DNA of 64,000 nt. It comes from Ancylobacter tetraedralis (GTDB lineage Bacteria; Pseudomonadota; Alphaproteobacteria; Rhizobiales; Xanthobacteraceae). The position numbers and the translations under genes are program-made. Below are positions 48,204 to 59,750 of the stretch, piece by piece. Each line of letters opens with the position of its first letter. The first letter of the stretch is position 1. The notes below the pieces were generated by a model, which had not been told where the DNA came from, did not search any database, and saw nothing but the letters and a program-made list of their open reading frames with translations. Location of the stretch: NCBI RefSeq assembly GCF_014195655.1, contig NZ_JACICD010000004.1:248001-312000 (forward strand), given 5' to 3'.

Positions 48204-48569
48204 TCAATGGCTGATCATCCACGGGCGCGCCGAGGGGAAGCTCTTGGCGCCGCTCGCCGTGGTGGCGGTGCGGTTCTTCTTGGTCCGGCTCTTCATGCCC
48301 GAGCAGCAGGAACAGCCGGCGCCGTGGCGGGCGCGGTCCTGCTTCTCCTTGTAGCCGTCGACGCTCATCGGCGCGTGGCGCGCCTGTTCGTTGGTGGAAT
48401 GGGCGAGGCGGCTTTCGCGCGACAGCCCGGAGAAATGCGGAGCCGTCAGCAGGACGCGCGGCGCCAGCGTGCCGCAATCCGGGCAGGGCTGCGGGGCCTG
48501 ATATTCGCTCATCGGCCGCAGTTCCGTGAAGTCGCCGCAGGCGTCGCAGAGATATTCATAGACGGGCAT
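48204..48569 (-). CDS. fmdB: FmdB-type zinc-ribbon protein
   Basis: The 121-residue protein begins MPVYEYLCDACGDFTEL and has two CxxC pairs (CDAC, CPDC) within the first 35 residues, the FmdB zinc ribbon. A later GAGCSCCSGMK cluster could bind another metal. FmdB was first described as a putative regulator in the Methylophilus formamidase cluster. It ends the urtABCDE-fmdA-fmdB operon, 97 bp after fmdA. ATG at 48569. Confidence 0.9.
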   Translation of the reverse strand: MPVYEYLCDACGDFTELRPMSEYQAPQPCPDCGTLAPRVLLTAPHFSGLSRESRLAHSTNEQARHAPMSVDGYKEKQDRARHGAGCSCCSGMKSRTKKNRTATTASGAKSFPSARPWMISH

Positions 48570-48666
48570 CGGGCTGCTTCCCTGGGTTTGATTTTCTCGG
48601 GGCGTTTCCTCGGATGGAGGCGGGACGACACGAATGCCGTCCCGCGCGCCGGACCTGGATGGGGGG

Positions 48667-49902
48667 TCAAAGGTCCGGCGAAATCGGCATCTGGATCGAG
48701 CCGTCGATGAACTTGGTCGGTCCGGCGGCCGAGGGCTTGATGTCGAAGTCGAAGATCTCGGTCGGGAGCCACAGCGTGGCACAGGAATTGGGGATGTCGA
48801 CCACGCCCGACAGGTGCCCCTGCACCGGCGCGACGCCGAGGATGGAATGGGCCTGCGCGCCCGAATAGCCGAACTTCTTCATGTATTCGATGGCGTTGAG
48901 GCAGGCCTGACGGTAGGCGACGTTGGCGTCGAGATAGTGCTGCGTGCCGCTCTCATCCACCGATATGCCTTCGAAGATCAGATAGTCCTTGTAGTTGGGC
49001 GTGATCGGCGACGGCTTGAAGATCGGGTTCTTGATCCCGTACATCTCCATGCCGTTCTTGATCAGGTCGACCTTGATGTGCAGCCACGCGCCGAACATCT
49101 CGATGGCGCCACAGAAGGTGATCTCGCCATCTCCCTGGGAGAAGTGCATGTCGCCCATGGAGAGGCCGGCGCCGTCGACATAGACGGGGAAATAGATCTT
49201 CGAGCCGCGCGACAGGTCCTTGATGTCGCAATTGCCGCCATGCTCGCGCGGGGGCACGGTGCGGGCGCCTTCCGAGGCGACCTTGTCCCAGGCATCGCCC
49301 TTGGCCAGCTTGCCCAGATGCGCGGTCTTCGGCGCGGGCGGGTTGGCGAGCGGGGGCACGCGGGTCGGGTTGGTGTCGATCAGCGCCTGCTCGCGCGCGT
49401 TCCAGGTGTCGAGCAGCTTCTGCGAGGGCAGGGTGCCGATCAGGCCGGGATGGATGAGGCCGGCAAAGCCGACGCCGGGCACATGCCGCGAGCGGGTGAA
49501 CATGCCCTCGTAGTGCCAGATCGACTTCTGCGCGAGCGGGAAGTGGTCGGTCAGGAAGCCGCCGCCATTCTTCTTGGAGAAGAAGCCGTTGAAGCCCCAT
49601 TCGTGACCCTTGAGCGTGCCGGCATCGAGAATGTCGACCACCAGGAGGTCGCCCGGCTTGGCACCCTTCACGCCGATGGGGCCGGAGAGATAGTGCACGG
49701 TGGACAGGTCGACATCGCGGATGTCGTCGGCGGAATCATTGTTGGCGATGGCGCCGCCCGTCCAGTCGACGGTCTCCACGAGGAAGTCCGCGCCCGGCTC
49801 CACCCAGGTGGCGATCGGAATGTCGGGATGCCAGCGATTGTGCAGGAATTCGTTGTCGGTAGCCGGCTTGGAAAGATCGACCGAAATCAGTGTCTCAGGC
49901 AT
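48667..49902 (-). CDS. fmdA: Formamidase (FmdA/AmdA acetamidase family)
   Basis: The 411-residue enzyme hydrolyses formamide to formate and ammonia. It matches the FmdA/AmdA family along its length: HNRWHPDIPIATWVEPG, HYLSGPIGVKGAKPGDLLVVDILD, GFNGFFSKKNGGGFLTDHFP, EHGGNCDIKDLSRGSKIYFPV, and SQGDGEITFCGAIEM. The ATG at 49902 has GGAG at good spacing, and a second ATG four codons upstream is too close to its own site. It directly follows urtE by 75 bp, linking amide hydrolysis to amide uptake. It is cytoplasmic. Confidence 0.96.
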   Translation of the reverse strand: MPETLISVDLSKPATDNEFLHNRWHPDIPIATWVEPGADFLVETVDWTGGAIANNDSADDIRDVDLSTVHYLSGPIGVKGAKPGDLLVVDILDAGTLKGHEWGFNGFFSKKNGGGFLTDHFPLAQKSIWHYEGMFTRSRHVPGVGFAGLIHPGLIGTLPSQKLLDTWNAREQALIDTNPTRVPPLANPPAPKTAHLGKLAKGDAWDKVASEGARTVPPREHGGNCDIKDLSRGSKIYFPVYVDGAGLSMGDMHFSQGDGEITFCGAIEMFGAWLHIKVDLIKNGMEMYGIKNPIFKPSPITPNYKDYLIFEGISVDESGTQHYLDANVAYRQACLNAIEYMKKFGYSGAQAHSILGVAPVQGHLSGVVDIPNSCATLWLPTEIFDFDIKPSAAGPTKFIDGSIQMPISPDL

Positions 49903-49977
49903 GGCGCACTCCATTCCCCTTGGGCGTGATGCGATAGGCCGACGGGGAGCGCTCCGAGGAGCGGCTCCCCTCGGGTG

Positions 49978-50667
49978 TCAGACGGAGAGGAACCGCGCGA
50001 CCTTGGCCTCGTCGACCTCGGCGCGCAGGTTCTCGTGGACGATCTCGCCATTCTCGATGACGAGCACGCGGTCGGCGATGTCGAGGGCGAAGGACAGCAC
50101 CTGCTCGGAGACCACGATGGACAGGCCGCGCTCGTCGCGGATGCGCTTCAGCGTGCGGGCCATTTCACGGATGATGGAGGGCTGGATGCCCTCGGTCGGC
50201 TCATCGAGCAGCAGCACCTTGGGCGCGGTGGCGAGCGCGCGGGCGATGGCGAGCTGCTGCTGCTGACCGCCGGAGAGGTTGCCGCCGCGCCGGCCCTTCA
50301 TCTCCAGCAGCACCGGGAACAGCTCATAGATGTCCGGCGGCACCTTGCTCTCGCCGCGCGGTATGAGACCGGTCTCGATGTTCTCCTGTACCGTCATGGT
50401 GGAGAAGATCATGCGGCCCTGCGGCACATAGGCGACGCCGTTGGCAACGCGCTCATAGCTCTTCAGCTTCGTGATGTCGGTGGGGCCGACCGAGACGGTG
50501 CCGCTCTTGGTCGGCACGATGCCCATGAGCGACTTCATGAGCGTGGTCTTGCCCATGCCGTTGCGGCCCATGATGGCGATGATCTCGTTGGGCGCGACCT
50601 TGAAGTTCAGCCCGTGCAGGACTTCGCTCTCGCCATAGGAGACGTGGAGGTTCGAGACGTTCAGCAT
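49978..50667 (-). CDS. urtE: Urea/amide ABC transporter ATP-binding subunit UrtE
   Basis: The 229-residue ATPase has Walker A GRNGMGKTTLMKSL, signature LSGGQQQQLAIARAL, and Walker B VLLLDEPTEG followed by IQPSI, which together with MLNVSNLHVSYGESEVLHG identifies the UrtE branch of the branched-chain (HAAT) family. It forms a heterodimer with UrtD on the cytoplasmic face. The ribosome-binding site is GAGGAG. Spacing to urtD is 10 bp. Confidence 0.96.
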   Translation of the reverse strand: MLNVSNLHVSYGESEVLHGLNFKVAPNEIIAIMGRNGMGKTTLMKSLMGIVPTKSGTVSVGPTDITKLKSYERVANGVAYVPQGRMIFSTMTVQENIETGLIPRGESKVPPDIYELFPVLLEMKGRRGGNLSGGQQQQLAIARALATAPKVLLLDEPTEGIQPSIIREMARTLKRIRDERGLSIVVSEQVLSFALDIADRVLVIENGEIVHENLRAEVDEAKVARFLSV

Positions 50668-50677
50668 CTTCGTCTCC

Positions 50678-51445
50678 TCAATGGCCGAGATAGACTTCGA
50701 TGACCTTCGGGTCCGCCTGGACCTTGGCCATGGAGCCTTCCGAGAGGATCTTGCCCTGGTGCAGAACCGTGACCTTGTGGGCGATGTCCTCGACGAACTT
50801 CATGTCGTGCTCGATCACGATCACCGAGCGGTTCTTGATGATGGTGTTGAGCAGTTCCGCGGTCTTCTTGCGCTCGGAGACGCTCATGCCGGCCACCGGC
50901 TCGTCGAGCATGAGCAGTTCCGGGTCCTGGATCAGCAGCATGCCGATCTCCAGCCACTGCTTCTGGCCGTGCGAGAGATATTCGGCGCGCTGGTCGAGCT
51001 GGTCGGCGAGGAAGATGGTCTCGGCGATCTCCTGCACCCGCTCCTTCACCGGGCCATCGCGGCGGAAGGTGAGGGCGCCCACCACGGTGCGTCCCTTGGG
51101 GTAGGAGATTTCGAGGTTCTCGAAGACGGTGAGGTCCTCATAGATCGAGGGGTTCTGGAACTTGCGCCCCACACCGGCGCGCACGATCTCGTGCTCCTTC
51201 ATCTTCGTCAGTTCGCGCTCCTTGAAGCGGATGGAACCGGTGGTCGCCCGGGTGCGGCCGCAGATGAGGTCGAGCACCGTGGTCTTGCCCGCCCCGTTGG
51301 GGCCGATGATCACGCGGATCTCGTTCTCGTCGACATAGAAGGACAGGTCGTTGACCGCCTTGAAGCCGTCGAAGGAGACGGTGAGCCCTTCCACCGCGAG
51401 GACGAAGTCCCGGTTCATGGAGTCGGTGATGACGCCCGCGTTCAT
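50678..51445 (-). CDS. urtD: Urea/amide ABC transporter ATP-binding subunit UrtD
   Basis: The 255-residue ATPase has Walker A GPNGAGKTTVLDL, an LSHGQKQWLEIGMLL signature (LSHGQ in place of LSGGQ, normal for UrtD/LivG) and Walker B LLMLDEPVAGMS. It starts at the ATG at 51445 with AGGAG; upstream open sequence belongs to the overlapping reading of urtC. It is tightly packed between urtC (11 bp) and urtE (10 bp). Confidence 0.96.
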   Translation of the reverse strand: MNAGVITDSMNRDFVLAVEGLTVSFDGFKAVNDLSFYVDENEIRVIIGPNGAGKTTVLDLICGRTRATTGSIRFKERELTKMKEHEIVRAGVGRKFQNPSIYEDLTVFENLEISYPKGRTVVGALTFRRDGPVKERVQEIAETIFLADQLDQRAEYLSHGQKQWLEIGMLLIQDPELLMLDEPVAGMSVSERKKTAELLNTIIKNRSVIVIEHDMKFVEDIAHKVTVLHQGKILSEGSMAKVQADPKVIEVYLGH

Positions 51446-51456
51446 GGCTTTCGCTC

Positions 51457-52635
51457 CTATTCGGCGGCGGCGGGGGCGACCGGCCCGGAGGCCGGCGGGC
51501 TGGCGGAAGGCGGCGCGGCGCGGCGCTTGGCGGCGCCGCCGAATAGCGGGCCGAGGCGCGGGGCGACATAGCTCTGCCAGAGGCCGGCAAGGCCGTTCGG
51601 GAAGATCAGCACCACGGCGATGAACAGGCCGCCGAGGCCGAACAGCCAGAGTTCCGGGAAGCTCTCGGAGAAGGAGGTCTTCGCCCAGTTCACCAGCAGC
51701 GTGCCGTAAATCGCGCCAAGGATGGACAGGCGCCCGCCGACCGCCGTGTAGATCACCATCTCGATCGAGGGCACGATGCCCACGAAGGACGGCGACATGA
51801 ACCCGACCTGCAGGGTGAACATTGCCCCGCCAATGGCCGAGAGCGAGGCGGCGAGGCAGAACACGAAGATCTTGAACGAGGAGACGTCGTAGCCGGAGAA
51901 GCGCACGCGGTCCTCCTTGTCGCGCATGGCGACGAGGATGCGGCCGAGCTTGGACGATTTGACGTAATAGGCGAGGAGGATGCAGCCGAGCAGCAGGCCG
52001 ACGCAGACGAAATAGAGGATGGTCTTGGCGCTGTCGGTGCGGATGTCCCAGCCGTGCAGCGAGCGCAGGTCGGTGATGCCGTTGATGCCGCCGGTATAAC
52101 CCTGCTGGCCGACGATCAGGATGGTCATGATCGCCGCGAGCGCCTGGGTGATGATGGCGAAGTAGACGCCGCCCACGCGCCGCTTGAACAGCGCGTAGCC
52201 CAGGATCAGCGCGAACAGCGCGGGCACCACGACCACGGCGAGGGTGGTGAAGCCGAAGCTGCGGAACGGCTCCCAGAACCAGGGCAACGAGGTGATTTGG
52301 TTCCAGTCCATGAAATCGGGGATGCCCGGCGTCGACTGGATCTTGGTGTTCTCGACGCTGGAAGCCTCCAGCTTGAGATACATCGCCATGCAATAGCCGC
52401 CCAGGCCGAAGAACACGCCCTGGCCGAGGGAGAGAATGCCGGCATAGCCCCAGCACAGTACGAGACCGAGCGCCACGAAGGCATAGGTGAGGTACTTGCC
52501 GACGAATTGCAGGCGGAAATTGTCCAGCGCCAGCGGCAGCACGACGAGGAGCAAGATGGCGAGGACGATGATGCCGATCAGGTCCTGCGGACGCAGGAAG
52601 AAGGTGCGGCCGGATTTGGGGGCAGGGATGGTCAT
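51457..52635 (-). CDS. urtC: Urea/amide ABC transporter permease UrtC
   Basis: The 392-residue inner-membrane permease has the LivM-type pattern: about ten membrane helices, LGLVLCWGYAGILSLGQGVFFGLGGYCMAMYLKL, and a late RVRFSGYDVSSFKIFVFCLAA segment with the conserved loop VAMRDKEDRVRF before it. The C-terminus has a short Ala/Pro tail. A strong GAGGAGG site precedes the ATG. It pairs with UrtB. Confidence 0.96.
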   Translation of the reverse strand: MTIPAPKSGRTFFLRPQDLIGIIVLAILLLVVLPLALDNFRLQFVGKYLTYAFVALGLVLCWGYAGILSLGQGVFFGLGGYCMAMYLKLEASSVENTKIQSTPGIPDFMDWNQITSLPWFWEPFRSFGFTTLAVVVVPALFALILGYALFKRRVGGVYFAIITQALAAIMTILIVGQQGYTGGINGITDLRSLHGWDIRTDSAKTILYFVCVGLLLGCILLAYYVKSSKLGRILVAMRDKEDRVRFSGYDVSSFKIFVFCLAASLSAIGGAMFTLQVGFMSPSFVGIVPSIEMVIYTAVGGRLSILGAIYGTLLVNWAKTSFSESFPELWLFGLGGLFIAVVLIFPNGLAGLWQSYVAPRLGPLFGGAAKRRAAPPSASPPASGPVAPAAAE

Positions 52636-52645
52636 GGGCGCCTCC

Positions 52646-53572
52646 TCAGCGACGGACCTTGATGACGAACAGGCCCTGCGGCCGCAGCATCAGGATGATG
52701 ACCACGCCGAGCAGCGTGAGGACTTTGGCCATCGATCCCGAGAGGAAGAACTCCATGGTCGACTGGGCCTGCGAGATGGTGAAGGCGGAGGCGATGGTGC
52801 CGAGCAGGCTCTGCGCGCCGCCGAAGACGACAACGAGGAACGTGTCGACGATGTAGAGCTGGCCGGAGGTCGGGCCGGTGGAGCCGATCATGGTGAAGGC
52901 CGAGCCCGCCACCCCGGCAATGCCGCAGCCGAGGCCGAACGTGTTGCGGTCGATCTTCTCGGTGTTGATGCCCACCGCGCCGGCCATCACGCGGTTCTGC
53001 ACCACCGCGCGCACCTGCTTGCCCCAGGCCGATTTGTACATGAGCAGGGCGACGGCGATGGTGATGGCGATGGTCAGGCCCATGACGAACAGGCCGTTGA
53101 TCTGCACCTCGATCGTGTCGGTGAGGGCGAGCGAGCCCATCATCCAGTTGGGCAGCTCGACGCCCACCTCGCGCGGGCCGAACACCGAGCGGTAGACCTG
53201 CTGCAGGATGAGGCTGAGCCCCCAGGTGGCCAGCAGCGTGTCCAGCGGGCGCTTGTAGAGCCGCCGGATCATCAGCCATTCCACCGCCATGCCGAGCGCG
53301 CCGGAGGCGAAGAAGGCGAGGATCATGGCAACGAAGAAGTAAATGTTGAACAGGGAGGGAAGGAAATGGAGAAAGAACTGCGAGGTGAAATAGGTGACAT
53401 AGGCGCCAAGGATCATGAACTCGCCATGCGCCATGTTGATGACGCCCATCTGGCCGAAGATGATGGCCAGGCCCAGCGCCATGAGCACGAAGACCGAGAA
53501 CAGGATGAGGCCGGCGAAGCCTTGCATCACGAAGATCGAGCCGAGCTCGGCCAGCGAATAATCGGCAAACAT
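52646..53572 (-). CDS. urtB: Urea/amide ABC transporter permease UrtB
   Basis: The 308-residue LivH-type permease shows [28 protein letters not shown] (read in parts), RALVQNR-type [28 protein letters not shown], and a C-terminal [14 protein letters not shown]. It forms the channel with UrtC. It equals FmdE in the Methylophilus amide system. A 100-bp gap with a strong hairpin separates it from urtA. Confidence 0.96.
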   Translation of the reverse strand: [308 protein letters not shown]

Positions 53573-53672: not shown

Positions 53673-54956
53673 TCACTGGTAGCCCTTGGGGAACGGATCC
53701 GGCTCGATCAGGTCCGGCGTCTCGAACACGACCTTGAACTGGCCGTCCGGCTGGGCCTGTCCCACGCGGGTCTTGGACCAGAGGTGATGGTTGGGGTGGA
53801 TCTTGACGTAGCCCTCGGGCGCCTTGGTGAACTCGATCCCGGCCGAGGCGGCGGCGATCTTGTCGATATCGAAGGAGCCGGCCTTCTCGACGGTGAGTTT
53901 CCACAGCCAGGGGCCGAGATAGGCGGCCTGGGTGACGTCGCCGATCACGGTCTTCTCGCCCCACATCTTCTTGAAGGCGGCGACGAACTCCTTGTTGTTC
54001 GGGTTGTCGAGCGACTGGAAGTATTTCATGCAGCTATAGGCGCCGGCGAAATTCTCGCCGCCGATGCCGTCGATCTCGTCCTCGGTGACGGAGATGGTGA
54101 GCAGCGTCTGCTTGGAGAGGTCGATGCCGGCGGCCTTGAGCTGCTTGTAGAAGGCGACGTTGGAGCCGCCGACCACGGCGGCGTAGATCACATCCGGCTT
54201 CTTCAGCTTGATCTTGTTGATCACCGAGTTGAACTGGGTGTGGCCGAGCGGGAAATATTCCTCGCCGACGACCGAGGAATCCTTCAGATGCCCCTCGATG
54301 TGCTTGCGGGCGATCTTCATCGAGGTGCGCGGCCAGATATAGTCCGAGCCGATGAGGTAGAAGGTCTTGCCGTTCTTGGTCTTCTGCACCCAGTCCAGGC
54401 CGGCGAGGATCTGCTGCGTCGCTTCCTGCCCGGTATAGATGACGTTCTTGGACTGCTCCAGTCCTTCATAGAATGTGGGGTAGTAGAGCATGCCGTTATA
54501 CTGCTCGAACACCGGCAGCACCGCCTTGCGCGAGGCAGAGGTCCAGCAGCCCATGACGGCGGCGACCTTGTCGTTGACCAGCAGTTTCTTGGCCTTCTCC
54601 GCGAAGGTCGGCCAGTCGGAGGCGCCGTCCTCCTGGATGTACTTGATCTTGCGGCCGAGCACGCCGCCGGCAGCGTTGATCTGGTCGATGGCGAGCTTTT
54701 CCGCCTGCACCGAGCCGGTTTCCGAAATCGCCATCGTGCCGGTGACGGAATGCAGGATGCCGACGGTGACTTCCGTGTCGGTCACGGCAAGACCCGTCGT
54801 GTTGACGGCGGCCGTGGCCGGCGCCTGAGCATAGGCAGGTGTTGAAAAAAGCCCGGCAGATGACAGAAGAGGCGCAGCAGGAAGCGCCGCCATGCCCATG
54901 AGGAGCTTACGACGCATGCTGGAAAACTTAATTGAATTTTCGTTATCGGAAGACAT
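53673..54956 (-). CDS. urtA: Urea/short-chain-amide ABC transporter substrate-binding protein UrtA
   Basis: The 427-residue periplasmic protein has an N-terminal MRRKLLMGMAALPAAPLLSS segment whose twin arginine suggests Tat export. The mature part is the type 1 periplasmic-binding fold: EVTVGILHSVTGTMAISETG, AIDQINAAGGVLGRKIKYI, AVMGCWTSASRKAVLPVFE, and YYPTFYEGLEQSKNVIYTG, all UrtA/FmdD features. The ATG at 54956 has GGAGGGG. It is the first gene of the seven-gene operon and the target of the divergent regulator by position. Confidence 0.95.
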   Translation of the reverse strand: MSSDNENSIKFSSMRRKLLMGMAALPAAPLLSSAGLFSTPAYAQAPATAAVNTTGLAVTDTEVTVGILHSVTGTMAISETGSVQAEKLAIDQINAAGGVLGRKIKYIQEDGASDWPTFAEKAKKLLVNDKVAAVMGCWTSASRKAVLPVFEQYNGMLYYPTFYEGLEQSKNVIYTGQEATQQILAGLDWVQKTKNGKTFYLIGSDYIWPRTSMKIARKHIEGHLKDSSVVGEEYFPLGHTQFNSVINKIKLKKPDVIYAAVVGGSNVAFYKQLKAAGIDLSKQTLLTISVTEDEIDGIGGENFAGAYSCMKYFQSLDNPNNKEFVAAFKKMWGEKTVIGDVTQAAYLGPWLWKLTVEKAGSFDIDKIAAASAGIEFTKAPEGYVKIHPNHHLWSKTRVGQAQPDGQFKVVFETPDLIEPDPFPKGYQ

Positions 54957-55411
54957 ACGATCCCCTCCACGGGTTTGACGTGGCCTCAACAAGCTTCCCG
55001 ATGTGCTTGCATTATGGGGATCGTGGCGGTCGATGGCGCGCTGCAGCAATACGTCGATTGACGTATAGGGGATCCGGGCCGCCGGCTTCAGAGTAGGTGT
55101 CACGCTAGAGGCGTCCTGCGCTTCCCGCGTCGTCAGTTTTTCGCGCGCGCGCGGGCGCGCAATGTCGGATCAGATAGGATTTCGTCAGCCGTTTTCGGAG
55201 TGAATCGAGTAGCGGGAAGGCAAGTAATTCTTGATCGATGCAGACTGGACGATCCGAATGCGTTCACGAAGGCACTTTTTTGCAATGAGTTGTCGAAGTT
55301 GGAATGATTTGTGCTTGTAATCTACGGCGGTATGGATAACCAGACCGCGCGGTGGCCCGGGCGAGCCGGGTGACGCTCCAAGAAGAACAGTCGAGAGGGT
55401 CGGCGCGCGGG
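54957..55411. promoter_or_regulatory. 455-bp divergent control region between urtA and the transporter-kinase gene
   Basis: It contains the palindrome at 55049-55066, a run of alternating GC (TTTTTCGCGCGCGCGCGGGC, 55137-55156), and an AT-richer stretch near 55200-55320 likely to hold the promoter of the sensor gene. No sigma-54 consensus is evident. The two divergent transcripts are probably controlled together. Confidence 0.55.
55049..55066. promoter_or_regulatory. Perfect palindrome ATACGTC-GATT-GACGTAT, candidate operator
   Basis: Seven-base arms match perfectly around a 4-nt spacer, 93 bp upstream of the urtA start. NarL/LuxR-type response regulators bind such inverted repeats as dimers, and the only LuxR-type regulator nearby is encoded by the divergent operon at 58818-59750. 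Binding is inference. Confidence 0.6.
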
Positions 55412-58400
55412 ATGTCGGACGTCGGGACGGCGAAGCGGGGCCCCATGGCAGCGGAACAGAAAATCGTTCGCGTGCGGCGGCGCTACAACCAGTGGGTCGT
55501 CAACGAGACGCTGGAAGATTACGCGCTTCGCTTCACCGCCAAGAGCGCGCGCCGCTGGTCGGCGCTGCGGGTGGCCAATACCGCGCTGGGCGCGGTGTCC
55601 TTCCTCGCGCTGGAGGCGATTGGCGGGGCGATCACGCTTGCCTATGGCTTCGAGAATGCGGTTGCCGCCATTGTGGTGGTCGGGGTGTTCATCTTCGCCA
55701 CCGGCCTGCCCATCTGCTACTACGCCGCCAAGTTCGGCGTCGATATCGACCTGCTGACCCGCGGCGCCGGCTTCGGCTATATCGGCTCCACCGTCACCTC
55801 GCTGATCTACGCCTCGTTCACCTACCTGTTCTTCGCCATCGAGGCGGCGATCATGGCGCTGGCGCTGGAGATGTGCTTCGGCGTGCCGCTGATGGTGGGC
55901 TATTTCATCAGCGCTCTCGTGGTCATCCCGCTGGTGACGCACGGCATCACCTTCATCAGCCGGTTCCAGCTCTGGACGCAGCCCTTCTGGCTGCTGCTGA
56001 ATCTCATCCCGTTCGGCTTCATCATCGCCTATCACGGCGAATCCGTCCGCGACTGGACGACCTTCACCGGCCGGGTCGGGGCGCCGGACGGCTCGTTCGA
56101 CCTCTTGATGTTCGGCGCGGCGACCACGGTGGTGTTCGCCCTCATCGCCCAGATCGGCGAACAGGTGGATTTCCTGCGCTTCCTGCCGCGCCGGGCGCCG
56201 GGGCGCAGCGCGGCGCGGCGCAACGCGCTGTGGTGGGTGGCGCTGCTCTCCGCCGGGCCGGGCTGGATCATTCCCGGCGTGATCAAGATGCTGGGTGGCT
56301 CCTTCCTCGCCTATTTCGCGCTCACCCGCGGCGTGCCCTTCCTGCACGCGGCCGAGCCGACGCAGATGTATCTCGTCGCGTTCCAGACCATGTTTCCGCC
56401 ACCGATGGCGCTCGCCTTCACCGGCATGTTCGTGATCCTGGCCCAGCTCAAGATCAACGTGACGAACGCCTATGCCGGCTCCATCGCCTGGTCGAACTTC
56501 TTCTCGCGGCTGACGCACAGCCATCCCGGCCGGGTGGTCTGGCTGGTGTTCAACGTCACCATCGCGCTCATGCTCATGGCGCTCGGCATCTACAAGGTGC
56601 TGGAGCAGATCCTCGGGCTCTATGCGGTGATCGCCGTGGCGTGGGTGGCCTCGCTGGTCGCGGACCTCGTGGTGAACAAGCCGATGGGCTGGAGTCCGCC
56701 CGGCATCGAGTTCAAGCGGGCGCATCTCTACGATATCAACCCGGTCGGCTTCGGCGCCATCATCGCGGGCACGCTGGTCGGCGCGCTGGCCTTTTCCGGT
56801 CTGCTCGGGCCAGCGCCGCAGGCCTTCGCCCCGTTCGTGGCGATGGTGGTGTCCTTCGCCACCGCGCCGGCCATCGCCTTCTCGACCCGCGGGCGCTACT
56901 ACATCGCCCGGCGCACCAGTCGCAACTGGGAGAGCCGGCTGACGATCCGGTGCTGCATCTGCGAGCACACGTTCGAGCACGAGGACATGGCCCATTGCCC
57001 GGTCTATGCCGGGCCGATCTGCTCGCTGTGCTGCTCGCTCGATGCGCGCTGCAATGATCGCTGCAAGGACGACGCGCGCTTTCCCGACCAGATCCTCGCC
57101 GCTCTGCGCGCGACGCTGCCGAGCTGGATGGTGGCGCGCATCAACTCGCGCATCGGCCATTATATCGGCGTGCTGTCGCTGCTCGCGGCGCTGATCGGCG
57201 CGATCCTCGGGGTGATCTATTTCCAGGCCACCTTCGCTCCCGCCGCCGAGCGGGAGGCGATGGGCCGCATCCTGTTCACGCTCTACTTCATCCTGCTGAT
57301 GATCGCCGGTGTCGCCGCCTGGCTTTTCGTGCTGGCGCAGGAGAGCCGGCGCGTCGCGCAGGAGGAGAGCGATCGGCAGACCTCGCTGCTGCGGCGGGAG
57401 ATCGAGGCGCACAAGCGGACCGATGCCAAGCTGCAGAAGGCGAAGGAGGTCGCCGAGGCGGCCAACCTCGCCAAGAGCCGCTACGTGGTGGGCATCAGCC
57501 ACGAGTTGCGCACGCCGCTCAATGCCATTCTCGGCTATGCCCAGCTTCTGGAGCGCGACACCACCATTCCCCCGCACCGGCGCGATGCCATCCGCGTGGT
57601 GCGCCGCTCGGCGGAGCATCTCTCGGGGCTGATCGACGGGCTGCTCGACATTTCCAAGATCGAGGCCGGGCGGCTGCACCTCACCCGCGACGAGGTGCGC
57701 ATCGGCGATTTCCTCGACCAGCTGGTCGACATGTTCCGCCTGCAGGCGACGGCCAAGGGCATCGATTTCGTCTATGTGCGCCCCGAGCGGCTGCCGGCGG
57801 TGGTCTATACCGATGAGAAGCGGCTGCGGCAGATTCTCATCAATCTCCTGTCCAACGCCATCAAGTTCACCGCCGCCGGCCGGGTGGCGCTGCGCATTTC
57901 CTATCGCAACCAGGTGGCCGAGTTCGAGGTGGAGGATACCGGCATCGGCATTCCCGCCGCCGATCACACGCGCATCTTCGAGCCGTTTGAACGTGGGGAA
58001 AGAGCGGGCACCTATTCCACCGCCGGCATCGGCCTCGGCCTCACCATCACCAAGCTGCTCACCGAGATCATGGGCGGGGAGATATCGCTCACCTCGGTGC
58101 CGGGGCGCGGCAGCACCTTCCGCGTCAAGCTGATGCTCTCCGAGGCGACGCGGCCGACGCTGGCCGGACCGATCCAGCACCGGCGCATCATCGGCTATGC
58201 CGGGCCGCGCCGCACCGTGCTGGTGGCGGATGACGACACCGCGCATCGCGACCTGATGCATGAATTGCTGCTGCCGATCGGCTTCACCGTGCTGTCGGCG
58301 GCGGACGGCGTCGCCGCGCTCGATATGGTCCGGCAATGGAATCCCGACGTGCTGCTGCTCGACATTTCCATGCCCGGCCTCAATGGCTGGGAAGTGGTGC

Positions 58401-58828
58401 GGCTTCTGCGCGACGAGGGCTTCGGCCGGCTCAAGATCGTGATGATCTCCGCCAATGCCGGCGAGATCCGCGGCGACGGGCTGGACGAGCGGCGCCATGA
58501 CGATCATGTCGTCAAGCCGGTGAATCTGCGCAGCCTGCTGGAAAAGCTGGAGAAGCTGCTGGACCTCGACTGGATCGGCGAGGGCGAGGCCGTGCCCGAC
58601 GCGGCGCCGCGAGAGAAGCTGCGGGCGCCGGCCGATGGGCATATCGAGGACCTCGTGAAGCTCGGCGAGATCGGCTATGTGCGCGGGATCCAGGCCAAGC
58701 TCACGGAAATCGAGCGCGCCTCGCCCGTGCACGGCGCTTTCGTCGCGCATATGCGCGACCTCATGCAAACCTTCGACATCAAGCAGTACATGACCGTCCT
58801 GGAGGCGTTGCGCCGCGATGATGCATAG
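55412..58828 (+). CDS. NCS1-permease/hybrid histidine kinase fusion (putative transporter-sensor)
   Basis: About 1138 residues from the ATG at 55412 (ATG at 55445 and GTG at 55352 are alternatives). Residues about 10-490 are an NCS1 cytosine/purine-permease-like domain with about 12 helices, beginning RRRYNQWVVNETLEDYALRF. Residues 514-552 hold nine cysteines (CCIC ... ICSLCCSLDARCNDRC). Two more helices follow, then a coiled coil, HisKA with His697 (GISHELRTP), HATPase_c (NLLSNAIKFT, DTGIGIP, GIGLGLTI), a receiver with Asp984 (LLLDISMPG) and a helical end. It probably senses a transported amide or ureide and signals to the overlapping response regulator. It is divergent from the urt-fmd operon. 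Confidence 0.9.
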   Translation: MSDVGTAKRGPMAAEQKIVRVRRRYNQWVVNETLEDYALRFTAKSARRWSALRVANTALGAVSFLALEAIGGAITLAYGFENAVAAIVVVGVFIFATGLPICYYAAKFGVDIDLLTRGAGFGYIGSTVTSLIYASFTYLFFAIEAAIMALALEMCFGVPLMVGYFISALVVIPLVTHGITFISRFQLWTQPFWLLLNLIPFGFIIAYHGESVRDWTTFTGRVGAPDGSFDLLMFGAATTVVFALIAQIGEQVDFLRFLPRRAPGRSAARRNALWWVALLSAGPGWIIPGVIKMLGGSFLAYFALTRGVPFLHAAEPTQMYLVAFQTMFPPPMALAFTGMFVILAQLKINVTNAYAGSIAWSNFFSRLTHSHPGRVVWLVFNVTIALMLMALGIYKVLEQILGLYAVIAVAWVASLVADLVVNKPMGWSPPGIEFKRAHLYDINPVGFGAIIAGTLVGALAFSGLLGPAPQAFAPFVAMVVSFATAPAIAFSTRGRYYIARRTSRNWESRLTIRCCICEHTFEHEDMAHCPVYAGPICSLCCSLDARCNDRCKDDARFPDQILAALRATLPSWMVARINSRIGHYIGVLSLLAALIGAILGVIYFQATFAPAAEREAMGRILFTLYFILLMIAGVAAWLFVLAQESRRVAQEESDRQTSLLRREIEAHKRTDAKLQKAKEVAEAANLAKSRYVVGISHELRTPLNAILGYAQLLERDTTIPPHRRDAIRVVRRSAEHLSGLIDGLLDISKIEAGRLHLTRDEVRIGDFLDQLVDMFRLQATAKGIDFVYVRPERLPAVVYTDEKRLRQILINLLSNAIKFTAAGRVALRISYRNQVAEFEVEDTGIGIPAADHTRIFEPFERGERAGTYSTAGIGLGLTITKLLTEIMGGEISLTSVPGRGSTFRVKLMLSEATRPTLAGPIQHRRIIGYAGPRRTVLVADDDTAHRDLMHELLLPIGFTVLSAADGVAALDMVRQWNPDVLLLDISMPGLNGWEVVRLLRDEGFGRLKIVMISANAGEIRGDGLDERRHDDHVVKPVNLRSLLEKLEKLLDLDWIGEGEAVPDAAPREKLRAPADGHIEDLVKLGEIGYVRGIQAKLTEIERASPVHGAFVAHMRDLMQTFDIKQYMTVLEALRRDDA

Positions 58829-59750
58829 CGTGGAACGCCGCGACATCATTCTCGTGGTGGATGATTCACCCGAGACCCTGAGTCTTTTGACCGATGCGCT
58901 GGAAGCCTCGGGTGCCACGGTTCTGGTGGCGGTCGAGGGCGCCAATGCGCTGGCGCTGGTCGAGCGCATCACGCCCGACGTCATCCTGCTCGATGCTGTC
59001 ATGCCGGGCATGGACGGCTTCGAAACCTGCCGGCGGCTCAAGCGCAACAAGGCGGTCGCGCATGTGCCGGTCATTTTCATGACCGGGCTTTCGGAAACCG
59101 AGCAGATCGTGAAGGGGCTGGAGGCCGGCGGCGTCGATTACGTGACCAAGCCGATCTCCCCGGACGAACTCATCGCCCGCATTCGCGTGCATCTGGCCAA
59201 TGCCCGCCAGACTCACAGCGCGCGGGCCGCGCTGGACGCGGCCGGCCGCTTCCTGCTCTCGGCGACGCGCGAGGGGCGGGTGCTGTGGTCGACGCCGCAG
59301 GCGACGGCGCTTCTATCCGCCATCACCGCGTCGTCGCCCGGCGACAGCCTCATGTTGCCCGAGGCCGTGCGGCTCTGGCTGGCGGCACGGCGAACGGATG
59401 GCGCGGGCGGCGAGCCGGCCGCGCTCGATCTGCCGATGCCGGGCGTCGTGCGCCGGCTGCGCCTCTCCTATGTCGGGCAGATCGGCCCGGAGGAACTGCT
59501 GCTGCGCATCGTCGAGGACGAGGGCGTGCCGCCCGAACAGGTGCTGCGGGCCAAGCTCAATCTCACGGTGCGCGAGGCGGAAGTGCTGATGTGGCTGGCG
59601 CGCGGCAAGGCCAATCGCGATATCGGCGAGATTCTCGGCCTCTCGCCGCGCACGGTGAACAAGCACCTGGAGCAGATCTACGCCAAGATCGGCGTGGAAA
59701 ACCGCGCCGCCGCCACCGCGCTGGCGGTCACCGCGCTCGCGCCGCGCTGA
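58818..59750 (+). CDS. LuxR/NarL-family response regulator
   Basis: The 310-residue regulator has a receiver domain (ILVVDDSPETLSLL; phospho-acceptor Asp59 in DVILLDAVMPGMDGFE; lysine in VDYVTKPISPDEL), a middle segment of about 110 residues, and a C-terminal LuxR helix-turn-helix (LTVREAEVLMWLARGKANRD, then IGEILGLSPRTVNKHLEQIY). It overlaps the transporter-kinase gene by 11 bp, so the two are translated together and are a cognate pair. It probably controls the divergent urt-fmd operon. ATG at 58818 or 58821. Confidence 0.93.
   Translation: MMHSVERRDIILVVDDSPETLSLLTDALEASGATVLVAVEGANALALVERITPDVILLDAVMPGMDGFETCRRLKRNKAVAHVPVIFMTGLSETEQIVKGLEAGGVDYVTKPISPDELIARIRVHLANARQTHSARAALDAAGRFLLSATREGRVLWSTPQATALLSAITASSPGDSLMLPEAVRLWLAARRTDGAGGEPAALDLPMPGVVRRLRLSYVGQIGPEELLLRIVEDEGVPPEQVLRAKLNLTVREAEVLMWLARGKANRDIGEILGLSPRTVNKHLEQIYAKIGVENRAAATALAVTALAPR

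Follow-up and report, generated by a model that had tools for sequence, protein, structure and literature searches.

A transporter-like hybrid histidine kinase opposite the urt-fmd operon of Ancylobacter tetraedralis as a candidate receptor for urea and small amides

Introduction

What does a histidine kinase with a permease-like N-terminal half respond to, and which genes does it control? These questions are raised by a 64,000-nucleotide stretch of the Ancylobacter tetraedralis genome (contig NZ_JACICD010000004.1, positions 248,001 to 312,000), the whole of which is referred to here as the window. A permease-sensor hybrid histidine kinase, for which we use the name TK, is encoded at 55412..58828 of the window, and urtABCDE-fmdA-fmdB, the genes for an amide/urea ATP-binding cassette (ABC) system, a formamidase, and a zinc-ribbon protein, are encoded opposite it. 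The original prediction, made from the letters of the window, was that TK is an NCS1-type permease fused to a kinase, that substrate binding or transport is read out as kinase activity, and that the signal is urea, formamide, or a related ureide. It also held that permease-kinase fusions are known as a class, which agrees with SLC5 examples in the literature (PMC7918813). Our analysis suggests that TK is probably a transporter-derived receptor kinase of the transceptor type that switches on the urt-fmd genes for amide or urea by way of its own response regulator and a DNA dyad.

Domain architecture and fold of TK

The TK frame is open throughout in the open reading frame analysis of the window (1138 residues) and encodes, in this order, an NCS1-fold permease core, an 8-cysteine module, two helices, HisKA, HATPase_c, and a receiver (REC). 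This is the single chain that had been predicted, and it is not a lone oddity: relatives are encoded in at least 585 stretches of the genome contigs searched. A domain search of the 1138-residue protein identified HisKA, HATPase_c, and Response_reg with Pfam, as expected from the prediction; for the permease half, no Pfam or NCBIfam transporter model matched. The kinase H, N, D, and G residues and the receiver D and K residues were kept in 114 of 114 full-length relatives (the other 14 of 128 entries are outside this count), and TK thus has the domains and catalytic residues of a hybrid histidine kinase. A start at GTG 55352 would give 1158 residues. Aligned relatives start near residue 12-13 of the window protein, and the real start may therefore be ATG 55445 rather than ATG 55412 or GTG 55352. 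Public records often name TK-type proteins merely "ATP-binding protein". An antisense open frame of 1252 amino acids lies over TK (window 55322-59080, minus strand); we take it for a product of the high G+C content rather than a gene.

The permease half had no Pfam match at E 0.01 in any of the 52 TK family members, and Pfam at E up to 10 returned chance names only, which were rejected. The NCBIfam cytosine permease model matched 16 of the 52 (best E 4.8e-9), the window protein not among them, and hhalign aligned the permease half to a PF02133-positive permease with an E value of 3.2e-31. An AlphaFold2 model of TK residues 1-700 (pLDDT 72.4, pTM 0.69; 28 sequences) had a 12-helix LeuT-type fold, and the nearest solved folds were Mhp1 (2jln, E 1.3e-7) and CodB (7qoa, E 2.1e-7), both NCS1, with TM-scores by target length of 0.66 and 0.76, respectively. 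NCS1 structures ranked above SLC5 structures in the fold search, and TK had no SSS (SLC5) profile match in Pfam and NCBIfam scans. Direct profile searches against PDB sequences returned nothing for the TK permease half, for a distant permease from a Pantoea plasmid, or for the cysteine module. Taken together, the predicted structure and the sequence links through relatives support an NCS1-type fold for the permease half, in line with the predicted fusion.

Gene neighborhood of TK relatives

Close relatives were taken as the best 80 by similarity among the at least 585 stretches, a set rich in Bradyrhizobium. The urtA gene was divergent from TK in 79 of these 80; the remaining locus (L068) had an aliphatic amidase gene beside TK instead. 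We also picked 43 further loci by hand from family, class, and phylum matches as a diverse set, which comprised 21 urt-fmd loci, 12 urea loci, 8 fmdA-AmiS/UreI loci, and 2 loci (L132 and L133) that were neither. FmdA, urt, or urease genes adjoined TK in 41 of the 43. Relatives of the urt-fmd type also occur in the genera Azorhizobium and Rhodopseudomonas. The urea-type loci had urea-type urt genes (about 40% identity) and/or urease; L135 had urea carboxylase and allophanate hydrolase, and L134 had a gene that clusters with that hydrolase. With the same queries, an amide/urea gene was found in 1 of 20 control regions surrounding other kinase genes in the window genome; a REC-HisKA-HATPase-REC query also matched 3 of the 20 and was not counted as an amide/urea gene. 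The link to amide/urea uptake is thus stronger than it was when drawn from one locus.

Searches with the first 640 TK residues (E 1e-5), all within the phylum, found matches in 97 of the 248 family genomes, in 21 of 289 at class level, and in 45 of 349 at phylum level; the class and phylum counts take in a few genomes that have just a weak stand-alone relative.

A paralogue clade (L119-L125, L159, and L170) encoded proteins of about 880-895 amino acids without a receiver. Its neighbors were fmdA, an AmiS/UreI channel, a REC-HisKA-HATPase-REC protein, and an OmpR-type regulator, the latter two identified by profile in L123 and by similarity in the others. A side reading is that this clade represents a different phosphorelay serving the same kind of sensor. 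NtrC was ruled out as the identity of the second-kinase neighbor, the protein being REC-HisKA-HATPase-REC. A ClpB-D2-like AAA ATPase gene stood beside an aliphatic amidase gene in several urt-fmd loci (L147 17239-18282; L140, L142, L148, L149, and L157).

Response regulator and the dyad upstream of urtA

The TK stop is overlapped by 11 nt by the start of a gene for a REC-GerE response regulator, and a regulator gene followed TK within 500 bp in 80 of 80 close relatives. Among 32 sequences, its recognition helix (consensus SPRTVNKHLE) was conserved in both the urt-fmd and the urea context.

The region before urtA contains a perfect 7+4+7 inverted repeat. The urtA open reading frame reaches 55103, yet the ATG at 54956, the probable start, is preceded by GGAGGGGA; the proximal edge of the dyad is 92 nt from this ATG. 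The loose pattern, with up to 1 mismatch, occurred once in the 64 kb, which is unremarkable alone (shuffles, mean 0.45). Its conservation among relatives is remarkable. The search covered the 900 bp before TK in 103 loci labelled FmdA-urtF, including the window, L167, and L171 (fmdA, no urt). The dyad was exact in 73 of 103 regions (shuffles 0.05) and present with up to 1 mismatch in 90 (shuffles 1.35), and 54 distinct 26-mers contributed to the count. Over 128 loci and 2.57 Mb, 75 of 79 exact dyads lay no more than 900 bp before TK; the remaining four preceded fmdA (L140 and L142), a gene ahead of a urea-type urtA (L134), and allophanate hydrolase (L135). One-mismatch sites were before urtA in urea loci L138, L154, and L166. 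Twenty control regions (398 kb) held no exact dyad and 3 within 1 mismatch.

The dyad lay at a narrowly spread distance from urtA: counted from codon 62, the middle half of 71 sites fell at 107-129 nt (outliers 75, 183, 185, and 337). Its distance to TK was wide (30-388), so the dyad seems to belong to the urtA promoter. Judged from these patterns, it is probably the response-regulator site. A search of the intergenic regions for a sigma-54 promoter gave weak matches in 3 of 39, and this candidate was dropped; a search for a sigma-70-like promoter was negative. In the orphan locus L132, an exact dyad is nonetheless present, 144 bp before TK. Whereas the fusion and the amide/urea link of the original prediction stood, the LuxR-type regulator and the dyad were absent from it; the dyad ATACG-N8-CGTAT, whose spacing to the downstream urtA is almost constant, is new here.

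Phylogeny and the conserved core

A tree of 77 rows (75 TK-type and 2 outgroup) was built by a quick method; L143 and L166 were dropped for having too few readable columns, and L169 formed a long branch. The AmiS type was a single clade (support 99). The urea label (13 rows) needed 7 changes on the tree, at least 6 of them forced by well supported branches, so the sensor appears to have gained or lost its association with urea genes on several occasions.

Mean identity by segment was 0.94 for transmembrane helix (TM) 3, about 0.80 for TM1, and 0.78 for TM8, compared to 0.54 for TM12 and 0.44 for TM13; TM9 (0.85) and the loop 423-443 (0.84) of the core were also highly conserved. Across urt-fmd and urea contexts, 17 of 29 residues of TM3 and 16 of 39 of TM8 were invariant, and E250, Q251, and D253 of TM6 and many TM1 residues were unchanged. 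Because the context switched several times while core residues stayed constant, these data point to one ligand or ligand class, urea or small amides, for formamidase and urea contexts. Such a common class would fit the Methylophilus fmd cluster (fmdCABDEF), for which both formamide and urea act as inducers (PMC10781810).

Cysteine module and linker helices

All 8 cysteines of the module were invariant across the 52-member alignment, and the module may bind metal. NCS1 proteins have their N-terminus inside; with 12 permease helices, the module would therefore be cytosolic. A 49-residue query against the 349 phylum genomes gave no convincing match outside TK proteins; TK proteins were found down to E 3e-12, followed by four matches at E 0.002-0.007 that we took for chance. 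A separate model of the module (pLDDT 77) gave no significant Foldseek match (best E 0.49), and the weak matches were mostly RING, FYVE, PHD, and LIM fingers; "zinc-finger-like" is our guess from this model. No STAC match was found in TK with Pfam and NCBIfam, libraries that may hold no STAC model, and the cysteine module occupies that place.

Features of the window

UrtA through UrtE and FmdA scored above NCBIfam equivalog or exception cut-offs, and FmdB above domain-level cut-offs. The features are listed in Table 1.

Table 1. Coordinates of TK, its regulator, the dyad, and the urt-fmd genes in the window
Feature	Position	Strand	Basis
TK, permease-sensor hybrid histidine kinase, 1138 aa	55412..58828	+	Open frame and Pfam
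NCS1-fold permease core, residues 47-491; 12 helices read from model, TM1 broken at 61-63	55550..56884	+	AlphaFold2 model, fold search, profile links
Cysteine module, residues 512-552, C-x2-C-x11-C-x7-C-x2-C-C-x5-C-x3-C	56945..57067	+	52-member alignment
Two further predicted helices, residues 580-640, leading to kinase	57149..57331	+	AlphaFold2 model
HisKA, phospho-acceptor H697	57473..57670	+	Pfam; H kept in 114/114
HATPase_c	57809..58138	+	Pfam; N815, D842, G874 kept in 114/114
Receiver domain, D984 and K1035	58217..58549	+	Pfam; residues kept in 114/114
Response regulator, REC and LuxR/GerE DNA-binding domain	58818..59750	+	Pfam; HTH conserved across contexts
18-bp dyad ATACGTC-GATT-GACGTAT, ATACGTCGATTGACGTAT, putative response-regulator site	55049..55066	.	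Conserved pattern ATACG-N8-CGTAT
urtA, substrate-binding protein of amide/urea ABC system	53673..54956	-	NCBIfam
urtB, permease	52646..53572	-	NCBIfam
urtC, permease	51457..52635	-	NCBIfam
urtD, ATPase, start approximate	50678..51454	-	NCBIfam
urtE, ATPase	49978..50667	-	NCBIfam
fmdA, formamidase	48667..49914	-	NF045496, 727 bits against cut-off of 500
fmdB-type zinc-ribbon protein, start uncertain	48204..48782	-	Pfam and NCBIfam, domain level

Plasmid-borne relatives

Plasmid records matching TK numbered 531, of which 342 were from Klebsiella. Eight plasmid loci were opened. On K. pneumoniae pKP062-1 (L167, 3909-13381), TK, named "ATP-binding protein" in RefSeq, is divergent from urtABCDE-formamidase; this formamidase was not FmdA by the query used. 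TK was accompanied by fmdA, fmdB, and an amidase gene, and no urt, on a Methylovirgula plasmid and by fmdA-AmiS on a Paracoccus plasmid, its neighborhood on a Chelatococcus plasmid was like that of the window, and S. meliloti 1021 pSymB had urea-type urt genes by tblastn (the record carries no annotation). The Pantoea locus was that of the distant permease. On Acinetobacter lwoffii pALWVS1.1 (L169, 8947-10554), a stand-alone 535-residue permease relative that ends inside the cysteine module lies within a urease cluster, just before ureEFG-HupE-ureDABC; it may be a permease for urea or a remnant that has lost the kinase.

Discussion

The comparative evidence favors urea and/or formamide as the ligand of TK. 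In the mechanism that we propose, this small amide would bind the NCS1-fold core, and the resulting change in the core would reach the HisKA dimer by way of the cytosolic cysteine module and the two helices that follow it. Phosphate would then move through the TK receiver, perhaps with a histidine phosphotransferase encoded elsewhere, to the LuxR-type regulator, which would bind ATACG-N8-CGTAT about 90 bp before urtA and activate urtABCDE-fmdAB. In some other species, the regulator would activate promoters of a urea transporter, allophanate hydrolase, or fmdA. That binding or transport is read out as kinase activity, as the original prediction had it, is what we infer by analogy with CbrA, and TK may also transport its ligand. 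A nucleobase or hydantoin sensor was put aside because genes of that kind were not conspicuous near TK; no hydantoin, cytosine, or allantoin pathway stood out in the neighborhoods looked through, in which no search aimed at those genes was made.

Several results weigh against this reading. Confidence in the AlphaFold2 model of TK was moderate, and no histidine phosphotransferase gene was recognized among the window genes scanned. The dyad is unevenly distributed: 13 of 103 urt-fmd regions had nothing within 1 mismatch, an exact dyad stood just before TK in 2 of 14 urea loci, and 8 of these 14 had no site within 1 mismatch in the whole locus (6 had one). The shorter fmdA-AmiS paralogue had other regulators and no exact dyad before TK (0 of 9). 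Orphan TK-regulator pairs (L132, L133, and L263) had no amide/urea genes found nearby, and TK of Tistrella pTM1, one of the eight plasmid loci opened, was also without such neighbors. A further urtA, 38% identical, is present in the window genome at C3:162354, with a urease (C3:169664) about 7 kb away; another urease is encoded as well, and neither TK nor the dyad accompanies any of these. Urea use as a whole is therefore not under the TK system in this genome. As for urea itself, the fmd-linked transporter of a Bradyrhizobium cluster of the urt-fmd kind has been argued to carry amides, not urea (PMC3098086), and the ligand class that we place first is therefore short amides including urea, ahead of urea alone.

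Other explanations were considered. The TK system could sense nitrogen status or a breakdown product (ammonium or formate), with the permease half a mere membrane anchor or an ion/pH-gradient sensor. Ammonia is a product common to all TK contexts. In addition, high ammonia represses the Methylophilus fmd cluster (PMC10781810), and the specific stimuli of SLC5-type kinases have been called enigmatic (PMC7918813). However, a general nitrogen sensor need not adjoin amide/urea genes in 41 of the 43 picked loci, and TM3, TM1, and TM8 are conserved as a ligand site would be, although TM9 and the loop 423-443 are too. We consider this explanation unlikely.

It is likewise improbable that the dyad belongs to another regulator, such as a general nitrogen or amide regulator, and that the TK-regulator pair acts elsewhere. 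Among 30 genus genomes, the strict dyad was found in 28, TK in exactly those 28, and both were missing in 2 (G234 and G852). Only the strict form is informative there, as a looser 10-base pattern, reversed as a control, also gave 0-3 matches per genome; in the window genome, the strict dyad with up to 3 mismatches gave this site and one other (3 mismatches). Of 21 genomes in the family and genus that lack TK, 16 had UrtA relatives (34-40% identical, one 58%, compared to 68-91% in TK-linked urt-fmd operons), and none of their 24 UrtA loci had a dyad within 1 mismatch. Furthermore, the HTH of the regulator is conserved, and the dyad is missing from the paralogue clade, whose regulator is of the OmpR type. 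On the other side, 4 of the 79 exact dyads are not near TK, although all four precede fmdA, allophanate hydrolase, or a gene ahead of urtA. Co-occurrence alone cannot separate this explanation from ours because TK, the regulator, and urt-fmd travel as one block.

In a trigger-transporter model, the ABC transporter or UrtA would be the true detector of the ligand, and TK would read its state or flux by contact. TK is linked to the ABC system very frequently, as this model would expect, but no urt genes were found beside TK in the fmdA-AmiS loci or in L139, L152, and L171, and a conserved NCS1 core would be unnecessary; we find the model very unlikely. That the cysteine module is the sensor proper (of nickel, zinc, or redox state) and the permease a metal or amide importer is highly improbable: despite the eight invariant cysteines and the HupE/UreJ or NicO genes of some urea loci, HupE/urease queries matched 0 urt-fmd loci of 80 + 21 (other nickel genes were not searched), and the weak fold matches, none significant, are mostly structural zinc fingers.

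We therefore return to TK as a probable amide/urea receptor kinase. In the broader form of this proposal, a urea/small-amide receptor kinase with an NCS1 fold, a (zinc-finger-like) cysteine module found in this family alone among the genomes searched, its own regulator, and an ATACG-N8-CGTAT operator would be widespread across Pseudomonadota, including Klebsiella plasmids; the chances for and against this form seem evenly balanced. TK would offer a regulator of the uptake genes for urea and formamide, and records named "ATP-binding protein" would acquire a function. The TK family combines a predicted class of ligand with a cognate regulator and a specific putative operator, and so makes the question of how a transporter fold signals to a kinase directly testable.

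Comparison with known systems

The available text on Methylophilus methylotrophus fmdCABDEF (PMC10781810) names a putative positive regulator, the counterpart of the FmdB-type zinc ribbon, and mentions no permease-kinase. The plasmid urea transport system (UTS) of Klebsiella ST307/CG307 is urtABCDE-formamidase, the formamidase being called AmiF in published accounts, and on pKP062-1 TK is divergent from such a cluster. The available parts of UTS papers PMC5506382 and PMC13060141 mention neither "histidine kinase" nor "two-component", and "histidine kinase" is likewise missing from those of PMC13209695 and PMC9040855, also on plasmid or chromosomal urt-fmd clusters. No published NCS1-kinase fusion or kinase beside urt-fmd was found in a full-text literature search, most subscription papers being outside its reach.

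Mhp1 and CodB, which have the fold of the N-terminal half of TK and to which the NCBIfam cytosine permease model links 16 of 52 relatives, are stand-alone hydantoin and cytosine transporters. Unlike TK, they have no kinase.

The hybrid kinases CrbS/MxtR (SLC5-STAC; PMC7918813) and PrlS, an SSS kinase with the LuxR-family regulator PrlR (PMC5715377), resemble TK in having a transporter-like N-terminus, a receiver, and a cognate regulator. They differ in transporter family and linker, and their proposed signals are acetate-related or ionic strength. The SLC5-STAC-PAS-HK transceptor CbrA of Pseudomonas, like TK, holds a LeuT-type core and a histidine kinase in one chain (PMC13022988, PMC7918813). 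It has an SLC5 core, a STAC and PAS linker, no receiver, and histidine as ligand, whereas TK has an NCS1 core followed by the cysteine module and two helices. The STAC domain of CbrA sits under the SLC5 core and is a proposed coupling element (PMC13022988); the cysteine module of TK would be its analogue by position only. Few transporter-kinase fusions have been characterized, and those in the literature found belong to SLC5; the TK family would bring a different transporter family into use as a receptor.

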